Source: Deltaproteobacteria bacterium (GTDB lineage: Bacteria; JAUYMQ01). From it: 6,371 nucleotides of DNA. Below the pieces are notes generated by a model. That model saw only the letters and a program-made list of their open reading frames with translations. It made no database searches and was not told the DNA's origin. This document shows, piece after piece, positions 1 through 6,371 of the stretch; the stretch's first letter is position 1; the number at the start of each line of letters is the position of its first letter. Position numbers and translations under genes: made by a program. Where the stretch lies: the NCBI GenBank assembly GCA_030698575.1, contig JAUYMQ010000279.1:1-6371 (forward strand), written 5' to 3'.

Positions 1-872
1 CGAAGCCAGGCCGAGAGGCTGATATGCCAGCGCCGCCAGAATTCGGTGGGGTTGAGGGCGAAGTAAGGGAGGTGGAAATTGGCGAAAAGGTTGAAGCCGA
101 GAATTCTCCCGAGGCCCCGGGCAATGTCGGTGTAGCCCGAGAAATCGCAATAGATCTGAAAAGCGAAGGCGTAGACCGCCATCAGTGCGCTGAGCCCGTC
201 GAGCGGATCCGGCCCTTCGAAGACGCTCGTGACGATCTCGGCGAGATTGTCGGCAATGTACATCTTCTTGAAGAGGCCCCAGGAGATGAGCAGCGCCCCG
301 TCGCTGAGCCCCTCCCGCGTGACCTGCCGGGGCACGCGCACCTGCGGAAGCATGTGCCAGGCCCGCTCGATGGGCCCGGCAACAAGTTGCGGGAAGAAGG
401 CTGTGTAGATTCCATACTCGAGAAGATTCCCGGTCGCCGCCTGCCGGCCCCGGTAGACGTCGATCACGTAACCGAGTGACTGAAAGGTGTAGAAGCTGAT
501 GCCCACGGGCAGGATGATCTGCAGCAGACCCGGCTCCAGATGGAGCCCGGCCCGCGCGCCCAGGTCGATCAGACTTTCTGCGAAGAAGTTGTAGTACTTG
601 AAGAATCCAAGGATTGAGAGATCGGTGATGATCGTGACGAACAGCCAGCGTTTTTTACCGGCCTGCACCGAGTTTGCATCGATCCGCAGCGCCACGAACC
701 AGTCGACGGTCGTCGTGAGCATGAGGAGCCCCACGAACCGCCAGTCCCAGGCGCCGTAGAAAACGTAGCTCCCGAGAAGCAGGAGCCAGTTCTGGCGCAC
801 GCGGTCGAGACGCACGTAGAGCGCAAGAAAGATTGCGAAGAAGACCCAGAAAGGGAGCGAGTTGAACAGCAA
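1..872 (-). CDS. AlgI-type MBOAT O-acyltransferase, partial (C-terminus off the left edge)
   Basis: Membrane-bound O-acyltransferase of the AlgI/DltB-like group. These inner-membrane enzymes move an acyl group (acetyl in AlgI) onto a polysaccharide or other hydroxyl acceptor. The first 290 residues are present, against roughly 470-500 usual for AlgI relatives. Visible hallmarks: the N-terminus MLFNSLPFWVFF, typical of the family; LPVGISFYTFQSLGYVIDVY near residues 120-140; FFPQLVAGPIERA; the core YCDFSGYTDIARGLGRILGF near 240-260; and FWRRWHISLSAWL at 278-290, which carries the first conserved histidine (His283). The second, catalytic histidine and the IPLGGN segment lie beyond the window. 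The start is TTG at 872: an in-frame TGA lies directly upstream (875-873), and GGAG (884-881) sits 8 nt away. It is the last visible gene of the three-gene minus-strand operon, 46 nt after the hydrolase stop. The acceptor cannot be deduced from sequence. Confidence 0.93.
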   Translation of the reverse strand, partial: MLFNSLPFWVFFAIFLALYVRLDRVRQNWLLLLGSYVFYGAWDWRFVGLLMLTTTVDWFVALRIDANSVQAGKKRWLFVTIITDLSILGFFKYYNFFAESLIDLGARAGLHLEPGLLQIILPVGISFYTFQSLGYVIDVYRGRQAATGNLLEYGIYTAFFPQLVAGPIERAWHMLPQVRVPRQVTREGLSDGALLISWGLFKKMYIADNLAEIVTSVFEGPDPLDGLSALMAVYAFAFQIYCDFSGYTDIARGLGRILGFNLFANFHLPYFALNPTEFWRRWHISLSAWL

Positions 873-918: not shown

Positions 919-2190
919 CTAGACGAACGGCCGCCCTTCACGGGCATAGGCCGCCGCAGAGTGAAACAGATTGATTGCCATCAGGCTCGTCTCTCCGTCC
1001 GCCCTTCTCTCGTAGATCGCGGCAACTCCGGATTGCACCTCTTTGTCTTCCTGGCTCGCCTCCAGAGCGTAGTCCGCGAGGTGGCAGGCGAGGCGGGTGT
1101 CGCCGGCCTCCGCGAGCGCGGTCGCGCGCGCCAGCAGGGCACGCGCTCCCCCGGCGAGCGCGGCAACTTCAAGGGCAACCGCCGCCCGTGCGGCGGGCTT
1201 CAGTTCGCTCGGCCGTCCCGTATACCAGCCGCCGTAGTGGCGAATCACGTTCCGCACGATGAACTCCGCCTCGTCATAAACTGGTTGCAGCCAGGGCGAG
1301 TCGCTTCGAGGCTGGCACACGCGCGCAACAATGTCCACGTGGGGCGGTGAGCCGTCGTTGAGGGCCTTGAGGGTTTGCTCCACGATCGATTCGAGGTAGG
1401 CGGCTGTCTCGAGAAGCATCCGCTGGATCTTCTCCGGCTCGTTCACCATCGGGCCGCCGTGGCCCGGACAGAGGCTGCGCGGCTGGCAGGCAGCCATCTC
1501 CCTGAGGCCCCGGGCCCAATCCCACGGGTAGCGCTGCGCCTTCTGCGGGTTTCCGGCGTTGGGCACGCTCCAGATGAACAGATCACCCGAGCAGAGCACG
1601 CCGCGCTCGGGACAGTACACCCAGGTGTGGTCGTCGGTCTCTCCACGGCAGTGATGAAGCTCGAAGGTGATGCCGCCAACCCGGAGCGCGTGACGATCCT
1701 CGTAGAACGTATCCGGGAGGATCGCCGGCGCGTGGAAGAGATCGTAGGCGTCCCCCTCTTCCGCCATCTTCGCCGTGCCTCCGAATTGCCGCGCATTCAG
1801 GATGCTGTTGTGCCGTGAGGTTTCCTCGTAGCGAGCGAAGCGGGCGGGCATGGCGGCGTGCCCGATGACCCGGGGGGGCGGCTGACCTTCCTTAAGGAAG
1901 TGGGACAGTCCGTAGGCATGATCGACGTGGCCGTGCGTGAAGATCGCCGTGTGAACCGGCGCGGCGGTGCGCTGGCGGAGCATTTCCGCCATGCCTTTCC
2001 CGAAAACGACCTGGCCGCTGTCGACCAGCACCAGCCCCTCGTCGGTTTCGAGGGCCGTGCTGCCGCTGAAAACGCACTGAAACCACGTGCGCTCGGCCAC
2101 CTCGATCGGCCCGCCCCGCCAGAAAAACTGCGCTTCCTCGGGGCTCTGTCCCTCGCTCCCCTGGAAACGGTCCATCGGGTTCTTCGCCAC
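919..2190 (-). CDS. Metallo-beta-lactamase-fold hydrolase with alkylsulfatase-type dimerisation domain
   Basis: A 423-residue binuclear-metal hydrolase, with no signal peptide or membrane segment, so probably cytoplasmic. The metal-binding motifs of the fold are complete: HGHVDH (His86, His88, Asp90, His91), HHCRGETDDH (His180 as likely ligand), SGDLF (Asp203) and PGHGG (His244). From about residue 270 the protein matches the dimerisation domain of the BDS1/SdsA1 alkylsulfatases, including HYGGWYTGRPSEL near 318-330 and a helical tail to the end. The SCP2-like C-terminal domain of true SdsA1 enzymes is absent, so sulfatase activity is not assured; thioester, ester or sulfate ester hydrolysis are all possible. 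GTG at 2190 is preferred as start because AAAGGAGG (2204-2197) lies 6 nt upstream. An in-frame ATG at 2322 would add 44 low-complexity Arg/Gly/Ser-rich residues and would translate through a strong hairpin. It is the middle gene of the operon. Confidence 0.9.
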   Translation of the reverse strand: MAKNPMDRFQGSEGQSPEEAQFFWRGGPIEVAERTWFQCVFSGSTALETDEGLVLVDSGQVVFGKGMAEMLRQRTAAPVHTAIFTHGHVDHAYGLSHFLKEGQPPPRVIGHAAMPARFARYEETSRHNSILNARQFGGTAKMAEEGDAYDLFHAPAILPDTFYEDRHALRVGGITFELHHCRGETDDHTWVYCPERGVLCSGDLFIWSVPNAGNPQKAQRYPWDWARGLREMAACQPRSLCPGHGGPMVNEPEKIQRMLLETAAYLESIVEQTLKALNDGSPPHVDIVARVCQPRSDSPWLQPVYDEAEFIVRNVIRHYGGWYTGRPSELKPAARAAVALEVAALAGGARALLARATALAEAGDTRLACHLADYALEASQEDKEVQSGVAAIYERRADGETSLMAINLFHSAAAYAREGRPFV

Positions 2191-2196
2191 CTGGCC

Positions 2197-2204
2197 CCTC
2201 CTTT
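2197..2204 (-). promoter_or_regulatory. Ribosome binding site that decides the hydrolase start
   Basis: AAAGGAGG on the minus strand, with 6 nt between it and a GTG codon at 2190. This is the strongest Shine-Dalgarno match seen in the window. It favours the GTG over the ATG at 2322, which lies only 9 nt after the upstream stop and has no comparable motif. Confidence 0.75.
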
Positions 2205-2270
2205 CTGCAGTCTGGCCTGTCTCCCGCCCTGTCGCCTGGCGGCCAGGGTCCGACGCACTGCCGCTTGAAA

Positions 2271-2299
2271 GCTGCGCCGCCCGGCAGAGGCGGCGCAGC
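2271..2299 (-). terminator. GC-rich hairpin between the adaptor and hydrolase genes (possible terminator or processing/attenuation stem)
   Basis: On the minus strand GCTGCGCCGCC pairs perfectly over 11 bp with GGCGGCGCAGC, across a 7-nt loop (TCTGCCG). The tail begins TTTCAAG, so the U-tract is only three bases. The hairpin lies 33 nt after the stop of the adaptor gene and about 80 nt before the preferred hydrolase start. The stem is strong but the tail is weak, so it may be a partial terminator, or a 3'-end stabiliser that sets different expression levels within one operon. The hydrolase could also have its own promoter after it, but I see no convincing one. Confidence 0.5.
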
Positions 2300-2331
2300 G
2301 GGTGCCCAAGATTTCGCCCCATCGGGCGCGA

Positions 2332-4680
2332 TCAGGGAATCCAGGACCAGACTTCAACGGTGAAGAAACGGACGATCCCGTGGGTCATGACGAGGCCGAA
2401 GGGCTCGTACTTCGTGAAGACCTTGCCGTATCCCGTCATCTCGGATTTGAGCAGCCCGTCCTCGTTCGCCAGATTGACCAGCACCCGCACGACGCGCCCC
2501 TCGTCCGACGTGGCGGCGCGGCTGATGGCGTCTTCCCGCTCGGTGCGCAGATACTCGACCGTTCCTTCCTTCTCCTTGTCGGTAACGACGGGCGCGACGG
2601 CCTTCACCTGCCCCTCGAAGGTCTTGTCCGGGTAAGACCACGTTTTCACCTTCACGCGGGCGCCGGGCTTGATGTCGCCGACGTTCTTCTCGGGGACCTC
2701 CACCTCGGCCAGGAGCGTCCGGTCGTCCTGGACGCTCGCGATGGAATCGCCCACGATGACCTCCATTCCCACGCGCATGTCCAGCCGCGGGCTCTTCACG
2801 ATGCGCCCGGCGATCGGACTCCTGATCTCGCTCAACGCCAGATCCTCACGGAGGTACTTCAACTGGGCTTCGAGCCGTTCCACTTCGGCTTCCTGGGTTT
2901 CGACGGCTTCCGTGCGCGCGCCGCTCATCACGACATTAAGATTCTCGCGCGACGTGTCGTAGACTCCCTTGCTCAGATCTCGCCGTTGCAAAGCCTGCTC
3001 GTAGAGCCCCTCCGACACGACCTTCTCCTCATGAAGCGTGGCAAGGCGCTCCGCATCGCGGGTGGAGTAGTAGAGGTCCTGCTTCGCCGTCGCCATCGAT
3101 TCGCGTGCCTTGGCGACCTCCTCCGGCTTGCTCCCGGCTTTCGCCAGGGCCAGCTGCGCCTCCGTCCGCCGAAGCTCCGCCTCCGTCACTTCCAGATCCT
3201 TTCGGGTCCGGCGGGAATCGAGCCGCATGATGATTTCGCCTTTTTCGACCCAGTCACCCTCCTTGACCATGACCTCTTCGATCTTCCCCTGGACCTGTGT
3301 CCTGATCCCCATCTGTTTCTCGGGAAGGATCCGGAGCGCCCCGCCCGGCTCGTAAGGATAGGGAAGGAACATCACGAGAACGAGGAGCACGATGAGCCCG
3401 ATGCGGAGAGTCCAGGCGATGGTCGACCTTCCGTTGTTCTTCGCAAGCCAGGCATAGAACGGTTCGAAGCGCATTAATTCCTTTCTGAACGTGAACTCCA
3501 GCGAAAATGCCGCGATCACAAGGAGCAGGGCGGCTCCCGTCACGTCGATGTGGCCGACGACGAGCCGCAGAATCTTATAGCCGAGAAAACCGAGAACCAG
3601 CCCGTAGAACAGGAACGCGGCGAGGCCGTAGGCGCGGAAGCCCCATTTTTGCTTCCGCGTCAGGGGTTCGGTCGAGGGGGTCCTGAAGATCCACGACCAG
3701 GTGGCGTTCAGGGAACGGCTTCGAAGCTCGGGCACCTCGAGCCACTGCGAGAGCATCCAGTAGGCGTTTCGCGGCCCCAGCGGGTTCCAGGGAAGGAAAA
3801 GGATGAGAACAGCCGAGACGATCAACAGCAAATCGTGAAGGCCGGTCTGCGACGAGGCGCCGTACCAGGCGATGAAAGCCAGCGATGCTAGCAGAACCTG
3901 CGCCACGAAGCCGGCATAGATCATCCGGTAGCGATCCCGAGGCGTGCGCATGACGGCGGCGTCGGTCAGGTCGCACTGAAAGATGGGGAAGAAGTACCAT
4001 TGCAACCTGAGTCCGAACCAGCGGATTCGCCCTCCTCTGTACTTGCAGGCCACGGCGGCCCAGAACCTCTGGAAGAAATTCATGAAGAGGAACGCGCCGA
4101 GGCCCATCAGCAGGGGGACGTTGTCGCGAAGATGGAAGTGCAGTTCCGTGAAATAACTTCGCCAGTGCTTGGCCATGAGTATGGCCGCCAGCAGGACTGT
4201 CGCGCTCGCGACGAAGGCGAAAGCGGGGGTGAAGCACCAGCTCAACCGTTCCGTGATCGCGCCGAAGAAGCGATCCACGTCGAACCGGGCCGGCGGGCAA
4301 ATGGTGTAGCCAGCCGGAGGGGCGATCTTTTCCGGAACGATCGTGATCCCGTCCGGAACCAGGAGGCCGCGCGTTCTGATCCAGCGCAAGAAGGCTTCGA
4401 GGTCTTCGGGATCCAGCGTGCGATCGAATCGCTCCCGGAATCGTGCACGCACTTCCGTCGGCGCCGTGTGGCCGTCGAGCTGGCCGAAGATGAAAAACTC
4501 GCGCTCACCCAGTTCCAGCGATGCGCCGGTTCTCGGGTCGGACACAAGGAACGCGCCCTCCGCGGCGCGCGGAAGGATTTCGAGATCCTTTCGAAACTCC
4601 GGATGAGGCGGAATTCCGGGGGGCACGGCCGCAAGCGCCGGTTCGGAGCCGTTCGATCGTCCCTGGGGGGGTGATGCCAT
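2332..4680 (-). CDS. PqqD-like / M50-like (pseudo-site-2-protease) / HlyD adaptor fusion protein
   Basis: A 782-residue inner-membrane protein with three parts. Residues ~30-110 resemble the PqqD-like winged-helix domain common at the front of this family. Residues ~140-440 are a multi-pass region homologous to M50/site-2 peptidases, with hydrophobic segments near 151-170, 187-203, 255-273, 284-300, 350-370, 380-395 and 424-442. Residues ~447-782 form a HlyD-type periplasmic adaptor: a lipoyl half-motif (VQGKIEEVMVKEGDWVEKGE), a long coiled coil (~491-615), the second half (LALSEIRSPIAGRIVKSP), then a beta-barrel region and the ending VEVWSWIP. The M50 zinc site is lost: the HExxH position reads QRFWA (204-208) before the conserved ACKYRGGR, and the Asp-Gly motif reads Asn305-Ala before YWMLSQWLEVPELRSRS. 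ATG at 4680 is chosen over GTG at 4710 because GAGGAAAGG precedes it. It probably acts with an exporter rather than as a protease. First gene of the operon. Confidence 0.9.
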   Translation of the reverse strand: MASPPQGRSNGSEPALAAVPPGIPPHPEFRKDLEILPRAAEGAFLVSDPRTGASLELGEREFFIFGQLDGHTAPTEVRARFRERFDRTLDPEDLEAFLRWIRTRGLLVPDGITIVPEKIAPPAGYTICPPARFDVDRFFGAITERLSWCFTPAFAFVASATVLLAAILMAKHWRSYFTELHFHLRDNVPLLMGLGAFLFMNFFQRFWAAVACKYRGGRIRWFGLRLQWYFFPIFQCDLTDAAVMRTPRDRYRMIYAGFVAQVLLASLAFIAWYGASSQTGLHDLLLIVSAVLILFLPWNPLGPRNAYWMLSQWLEVPELRSRSLNATWSWIFRTPSTEPLTRKQKWGFRAYGLAAFLFYGLVLGFLGYKILRLVVGHIDVTGAALLLVIAAFSLEFTFRKELMRFEPFYAWLAKNNGRSTIAWTLRIGLIVLLVLVMFLPYPYEPGGALRILPEKQMGIRTQVQGKIEEVMVKEGDWVEKGEIIMRLDSRRTRKDLEVTEAELRRTEAQLALAKAGSKPEEVAKARESMATAKQDLYYSTRDAERLATLHEEKVVSEGLYEQALQRRDLSKGVYDTSRENLNVVMSGARTEAVETQEAEVERLEAQLKYLREDLALSEIRSPIAGRIVKSPRLDMRVGMEVIVGDSIASVQDDRTLLAEVEVPEKNVGDIKPGARVKVKTWSYPDKTFEGQVKAVAPVVTDKEKEGTVEYLRTEREDAISRAATSDEGRVVRVLVNLANEDGLLKSEMTGYGKVFTKYEPFGLVMTHGIVRFFTVEVWSWIP

Positions 4681-5455: not shown

Positions 5456-6371
5456 ATGGCCTTGCCCCCGCCTGAGATTGTCCTGACGCTGCCCGGATTC
5501 CCGGACCCCGTCGTCGCCATCGCTGCGTGCCGGGCCGGGGCGCTCGGTGTCCTGGATCTCGAGTACGAGCGGTCGACGGCGCGAGCCGCCGATGCGCTCC
5601 GGAAGCTCCAGCAACACGCCCGGGCGGGCTTTGGGGTCAAGCTCGACCCATCCGCAGAAGCCTTCACTCGGGCCATCATCTCCGCGCTCCCTCACGAGAC
5701 GCAGTTCGCAATCCTCACGGGGAACGATCCCGCCGCCATCGCCTCCACCGCCCGCTACCTCGCCGATCGAGGCGTCGCCTTTCTACTCGAGGCCCTCAGC
5801 GAAGACGATGCCGGACTCGCGCGTGAGCTGGGCGCCGCGGGCGTCATCGCCAAAGGGCTCGAAGCCGGGGGCCGGACCGGATCGGACACGACCTTCATCC
5901 TGATACAGCGCATCCTTGCATCAATGGAGAAAACCCGGGAGAAAACCCGCCCGCTACCGGTTTGGGCGCAGGGGGGCATCGGTTCACACACAGCGGCGGC
6001 GTGCATCCAGGCAGGGGCCGCCGGCGTCGTGCTCGACTGGCAGCTGGCGCTGACGCGTGAAGCCTCGGCGTCCAGGGCCCTCCCTGAAAAGCTTCGCGAT
6101 CGCATTCGCGCGATGGACGGAAGCGAGACGGCCTGCCTTGGAGAAACGCTGGGGGCGTCCACGCGCCTCTTTCTGCGGCCGGGCGTCGCCGCAGCGGACA
6201 AGCTTGCGCGAGTCGAGGCCGATCTTATTGCAGCCGGGCCCGGACCTGATGCAGCGAAGACCTTCCGGGAGGCGGTGCTCGCCGCCGCCGGAGCGGAAGA
6301 CCCTGAAAAACGAGCCGGGTTGACGGGACAGGATGCCGCCTTCGCGGCGAGGCTCGCGGCGCGGCACCTGA
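5456..6371 (+). CDS. Nitronate monooxygenase/FabK-like flavin domain at the N-terminus of a probable large PfaA-like polyketide/lipid synthase, partial
   Basis: 305 codons are present and the frame is open at the right edge. The first ~200 residues form an FMN-binding TIM-barrel domain of the nitronate monooxygenase/FabK enoyl-reductase type. Visible are the opening VLTLPGFPDPVVAIAACRAGALGVLDLE (9-36), the strand GFGVKL, the AKGLEAGGRTG loop (132-142) followed by TTFILIQ, and VWAQGGIGSHTAAACIQAGAAG (169-190), the phosphate-binding end. Residues 194-260 (LDWQLALTRE, RIRAMDGSETACLGETLG) match, from memory, the linker between this domain and a ketosynthase in giant type I synthases. FabK and nitronate monooxygenases carry His in the GGHxG loop; here it is Arg140. 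Start: ATG with a weak GGA upstream; the nearest in-frame upstream stop is TAA at 5423. It is divergent from the adaptor operon. The ketosynthase and later domains are predicted, not seen; a stand-alone flavoprotein is the alternative. Confidence 0.82.
   Translation, partial: MALPPPEIVLTLPGFPDPVVAIAACRAGALGVLDLEYERSTARAADALRKLQQHARAGFGVKLDPSAEAFTRAIISALPHETQFAILTGNDPAAIASTARYLADRGVAFLLEALSEDDAGLARELGAAGVIAKGLEAGGRTGSDTTFILIQRILASMEKTREKTRPLPVWAQGGIGSHTAAACIQAGAAGVVLDWQLALTREASASRALPEKLRDRIRAMDGSETACLGETLGASTRLFLRPGVAAADKLARVEADLIAAGPGPDAAKTFREAVLAAAGAEDPEKRAGLTGQDAAFAARLAARHL
5927..5950 (+). repeat. 12-bp in-frame tandem duplication (EKTR-EKTR) inside the flavin domain
   Basis: GAGAAAACCCGG is followed at once by GAGAAAACCCGC (11 of 12 identical), giving Glu-Lys-Thr-Arg twice at residues 158-165. 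It falls in the variable surface loop between the RIL helix and the PVWAQGG strand, so the domain should tolerate it. It looks like a recent slippage duplication. Confidence 0.8.

Follow-up and report, generated by a model that had tools for sequence, protein, structure and literature searches.

The fusion gene in this locus raises the question of what role an intramembrane protease fold may have once its zinc site is gone. In the window (the whole stretch of 6,371 nucleotides that we analysed, a deltaproteobacterial contig), this gene joins a PqqD/RRE-type head, a site-2-protease (S2P)-like membrane domain and a HlyD arm in one protein (Table 1). The initial annotation had taken the membrane domain for a retained pseudoprotease, and our results agree: the predicted structure has an S2P fold, both zinc motifs are gone, and purifying selection acts on this domain in a pair of HExxH-less relatives. 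From its domains and gene neighbours we infer a role as scaffold or exporter; the reading that we favour, with moderate confidence, is that the protein is the non-proteolytic pseudo-S2P membrane platform of a TolC-dependent exporter for a specialised, probably sulfated lipid.

Table 1. Positions of the fusion gene, its domains and motifs, and the truncated synthase gene in the window
Feature	Positions	Strand	Basis or remark
RRE(PqqD)-pseudoS2P-HlyD fusion protein	2332..4680	-	782 aa; ATG at 4680, stop at 2332-2334
PqqD/RRE-like winged-helix domain, N-terminal, residues 26-110	4351..4605	-	AlphaFold2 model against TbiB1 (5v1u)
S2P-like membrane domain, residues 134-440, catalytic motifs erased	3361..4281	-	NF041824 match and structure matches
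QRFWA, residues 204-208, at the HExxH position	4057..4071	-	alignments
NPLGPRNAYW, residues 299-308, at the NPLLxLDGYY position	3757..3786	-	alignments
N305-A306, in place of the ligand Asp and the Gly	3763-3768	-	alignments
HlyD/periplasmic adaptor domain, residues 455-705	2566..3318	-	PF16576 and PF13437
RLS-type hairpin-tip motif, R545/L549/S556	3013..3048	-	motif found in the HlyD arm
C-terminal signature VEVWSWIP, residues 775-782	2335..2358	-	clade alignment
NMO-NMO-KS-AT lipid synthase gene, start only	5456..6371	+	cut by contig end; Pfam and alignment with L060

We modelled residues 26-448 with AlphaFold2, using an alignment of 30 sequences from which two plasmid-record rows were left out; the model reached a pLDDT of 82.2, compared with 54.6 when three sequences were used. 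In structural alignments the head matches TbiB1 (5v1u) with Z 11.3 over 82 residues and PqqD (5sxy) with Z 8.9, and it has the winged-helix fold of an RRE domain; the Pfam PqqD cut-off is reached only in one relative (P0002). The membrane part matches SpoIVFB (8vjm; Z 8.3, 154 residues), the M. jannaschii S2P (3b4r; Z 8.2, 153 residues) and 9j83 (Z 7.9, 164 residues), and RseP is among its S2P matches, whose Z scores range from 7.9 to 8.3. Foldseek E-values for the model are weak, and for a bundle of helices Z scores of this size (about 8) are modest; we nevertheless accept the S2P core fold as the predicted fold of the membrane domain, because several S2Ps match together and sequence homology agrees. 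The NCBIfam intramembrane metalloprotease model daptide_HExxH (NF041824) matches residues 29-394 at 101.8 bits, a score below its 300-bit cut-off that places the protein outside the family proper. Pfam Peptidase_M50 (PF02163) gives no match in the window protein at its curated cut-off, which is also missed by two relatives with intact motifs (L036 and L037). The remainder of the protein is a HlyD/periplasmic adaptor: PF16576 (64.1 bits, cut-off 30) and PF13437 (61.2 bits, cut-off 22.2) both exceed their cut-offs, and the hairpin tip is present. The tip carries the RLS motif, found also in several relatives, that adaptors use for docking to TolC-type outer-membrane channels (PMC4446572).

The loss of both zinc motifs, as claimed in the initial annotation, is confirmed by alignment with homologues of about 20-30% identity: against the 22 that have intact motifs, QRFWA falls exactly on HE(F/L/V)(A/G)H, and R304-N305-A306 falls on (L/Y/F)-D-(G/S), in both cases without local gaps, so that Asn305 occupies the column of the ligand Asp and Ala306 that of the Gly. 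The protein therefore lacks the two features expected of an active M50 protease, having QRFWA for HExxH and N305 for the Asp of LDG. The family motif ACKYRGGR, described as directly following QRFWA, is indeed kept; it is not adjacent, as A-V stand between. We also looked for intact zinc ligands elsewhere: a scan of the full sequence found no HExxH, and the few His, Asp and Glu residues of the membrane domain do not re-create a zinc motif. The scaffold residues G216-G217, G223, P232, W272 and P300 are kept in the window protein's clade and in the intact set alike.

No close relative was found in genome contigs (one 27% match, to the HlyD part) or in viral contigs, and the window genome is the sole representative of its phylum among the genomes searched; relatives were therefore drawn from other groups, giving a set of 33 S2P-HlyD homologues from several groups of genomes. 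Plasmids searched with P0005 as query yielded nothing at E 1e-20. Three S2P-HlyD homologues on proteobacterial plasmids (L031, L032 and L033) have an intact HExxH; they are flanked by genes for giant cadherin-like, DUF4347 or LEPR-XLL proteins as well as for TolC and further HlyD proteins, and none of the genes listed for the stretches examined is an ABC gene.

A tree of the 33 proteins, built without the two motif blocks, places the window protein in an 11-member clade with support of 100/100 that occurs in several bacterial lineages. HExxH is absent in 10 of the 11 members, whereas all 22 proteins outside the clade keep both HExxH and the Asp (Fisher p about 1e-7 for HExxH loss, uncorrected for relatedness and with small sets). 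The clade is thus a distinct subfamily, as had been suggested, combining good tree support, motif loss and purifying selection, with one exception, G460. This member ends in VQFWYWLP, the clade consensus at the C-terminus being (V/I)E(V/I/M)WSW(I/V/L/F)P. In another, G748, the S2P and HlyD halves are two adjoining ORFs (L085:16701-19102 (+)), which we joined for alignment.

The ten HExxH-less members read QRFWA, AVIVQ, ATFLI, TKLLQ, SKVVQ, GRLIQ, SRIVA (twice), GRIIQ and AIFLQ, and the first His, the Glu and the second His are gone in every one, being replaced by Q/A/T/S/G, R/V/T/K/I and A/Q/I, respectively. The initial annotation had asked whether homologues beside PfaA-like synthases share the QRFWA/RNA replacements; the loss of the motif is common to them, but the exact letters are not, because each lineage has its own replacements. 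A tree in which the ten proteins form one clade that excludes G460 is worse by 17.2 log units (p-AU 0.0044), and the tree model thus rejects a scenario in which HExxH disappeared once. Given that G460, with its HELAH, lies inside the clade, the loss was probably not one event; assuming that the motif was never regained, there were probably three or more separate losses of HExxH. Decay of the second motif is uneven: the Asp is kept in G422, G860, G748, G785 and G806 (cyanobacterium-like), as well as in G460. These retained residues are what could be said for a protein that is still a hydrolase with other ligands, i.e. a protease modified and not dead. We regard this as improbable, since His, Glu and His have disappeared from 10 of the 11 members, the window protein offers no replacement HExxH, and no catalytic-type residue of the membrane domain is conserved across the whole clade.

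Selection on the membrane domain was compared between erased and intact pairs. The erased pair G785/G806 gives a dN/dS of 0.22, and four intact pairs give 0.30, 0.28, 0.27 and 0.19; in a second erased pair, G621/G790, whose members are further apart, the ratio is 0.34 at a dS close to saturation. The erased domain is thus under purifying selection much like that on intact ones, which speaks against general decay and bears out the view that the flanking motifs are too well kept for it: scaffold residues remain where catalytic residues are lost. That the gene is an isolated decaying copy or a sequencing artefact is accordingly very improbable. Such an origin might be suspected from the state of the window genome, a fragmented MAG of 653 contigs with 4.6% contamination, and from the lack of a close relative among the genomes searched; against it stand the intact frame of 782 residues with its preserved flanks, the low dN/dS of the erased pair, and nine further HExxH-less relatives from several lineages, which also dispose of the concern that this copy is an isolated mutant among homologues that keep HExxH.

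The clade has a conserved gene neighbourhood. The truncated synthase ORF of the window aligns to residues 11-293 of the NMO-KS synthase of L060, and residues 296-1189 of that synthase are matched by another contig of the window genome, C109 (L064); a third contig, C531 (L063), contains AT-DH-PPTase as well as the first part of a phosphodiesterase-family gene. There is no exact sequence overlap between the window, C109 and C531, so their assignment to a shared gene cluster rests on abutting homology. Nine of the 11 clade genomes, the window's included, have a PfaA/Ars-like synthase protein: beyond the window's own genome, the KS-AT-DH-PPTase protein is found at E 1e-100 in 8/10 other clade genomes vs. 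0/17 genomes with intact homologues, counts that are uncorrected for relatedness. In the synthase loci with the S2P-HlyD gene (L035/L039, L058/L059, L060, L076/L077, L078, L082/L083, L084 and L085/L086), phosphodiesterase-family, hydrolase, p526, TPR, SDR and sulfotransferase genes occur in combinations that differ from locus to locus, as judged from simple ORF picks and, for several loci, from contig fragments. Sulfotransferase genes occur in five synthase clusters. A sixth locus, in G621 (L080, L081), has the pseudo-S2P-HlyD gene between NRPS genes, which stand in place of the synthase; one of these NRPS genes encodes condensation, adenylation, carrier, sulfotransferase and thioesterase domains, with sulfotransferase-thioesterase at its end. 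In G190, a MAG that is 73% complete, no synthase match was found; its locus contains TolC, a second HlyD, an inositol-phosphatase-family protein and an ATP sulfurylase-APS kinase. G460 carries a synthase cluster despite its kept HELAH and Asp, and hence the cluster does not require motif loss. The conserved cluster protein p526 (L035:14604-16181 (-) and homologues) has no Pfam match, and a search of the window genome did not find it; in the phylum of G422, likely Cyanobacteriota, p526 and pseudo-S2P-HlyD each occur in 7/386 genomes, 6 of them in common. No ABC, MFS or RND pump was found among the cluster genes examined.

Two further genes of the window were noted. Adjoining the fusion gene, positions 919-2322 (-) encode a metallo-beta-lactamase-fold protein with an alkyl-sulfatase dimerisation domain, which would suit a sulfated-lipid theme and of which no counterpart was seen in the other clusters; positions 3-872 (-) encode an MBOAT/DltB-like O-acyltransferase cut by the contig end.

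Our favoured reading assigns a part to each of these components. The type I PfaA/Ars-like synthase (NMO-KS-AT-ACP, KR-DH, KS-AT-DH-PPTase), usually accompanied by a phosphodiesterase-family enzyme, alpha/beta hydrolases and a sulfotransferase, would make a long lipid, the sulfation of which is probable from gene content. The PqqD/RRE-type head would be a cytosolic docking domain; the S2P helix bundle, with its zinc site erased, would serve as a membrane platform only and would presumably perform no proteolysis in the cell; and the HlyD arm would reach a TolC-type channel from the periplasm. The pseudo-S2P-HlyD protein would thus pass or hand the lipid across the envelope, and, judging from neighbour genes and the tip motif, it may belong to a tripartite exporter that works through TolC. 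If so, pseudo-S2P-HlyD would be a part of the export machinery, open to testing, for a group of orphan and probably sulfated lipids.

A less probable alternative is that the protein is a membrane anchor or regulator: the pseudo-S2P would tether the synthase or the sulfotransferase to the membrane, or would protect a substrate against active S2Ps, while the arm would do something else in the envelope. Known pseudoproteases work by binding or stabilising, as does plant EGY3, which takes part in stabilising chloroplast superoxide dismutase (PMC9355673); the RRE-like head has a peptide-docking fold; and TolC-type channel genes lie near two clade members only. Against this reading, a HlyD arm with an RLS tip is what adaptors typically use to dock to a channel, and most members have retained it. 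In a bolder form of the export reading, which we consider unlikely, the erased bundle replaces the pump itself: joined with the HlyD arm and with a channel of the TolC type, the bundle would be the entry gate for a membrane lipid at the inner membrane and would need no ATPase, RND or MFS protein, the RRE-like head taking the cargo or its carrier protein. Were this true, an intramembrane protease fold would have been turned into a lipid export gate.

The closest known relatives are the intact S2P-HlyD fusions (G148, G147, G009), which have the same RRE/PqqD-S2P-HlyD order, lie on neighbouring tree branches and keep the scaffold glycines and prolines. A C-terminal WSW motif is common to the nearest of them and to the window clade; unlike the clade, the intact fusions keep HExxH and the Asp, the nearest end in WSWW (VEFWSWW), and the synthase protein is missing from their genomes at the threshold given above. 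For the S2P half, daptide_HExxH is the named family that comes closest. Among S2P pseudoproteases, EGY3 of plant chloroplasts is highly conserved, is called the only pseudoenzyme of its family, and is reported in plants only, with a stress role (PMC9355673). By description, not by sequence, it resembles the window clade as an S2P homologue classed as a pseudoprotease. EGY3 is not known to have a HlyD arm or an RRE head. A literature search on M50 with HlyD and polyketide synthase gave no match. A bacterial pseudo-S2P clade with an exporter arm and lipid-synthase clusters would represent the reuse of an intramembrane protease fold for envelope transport.

The arm itself resembles the MacA/AcrA/HlyD adaptors in its HlyD_D23 and HlyD_3 domains and in its hairpin with an RLS tip; those adaptors partner a separate ABC, RND or MFS pump, whereas the arm of the window protein is fused to the S2P bundle. 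The synthases share KS, AT, ACP, KR, DH, PPTase and NMO-type ER domains with the secondary lipid synthases, which comprise types F (hgl) and P (ars), with Beijerinckia filed under type P (PMC3098273); a clade synthase is 43% identical to the Beijerinckia synthase. The Beijerinckia cluster encodes an ABC permease, an ATPase and an adaptor, where clade clusters encode pseudo-S2P-HlyD and often a sulfotransferase. Given this ABC exporter, the RLS-tipped arm and the lack of a pump among the clade cluster genes that we examined, we propose that the erased S2P bundle serves as the export platform.
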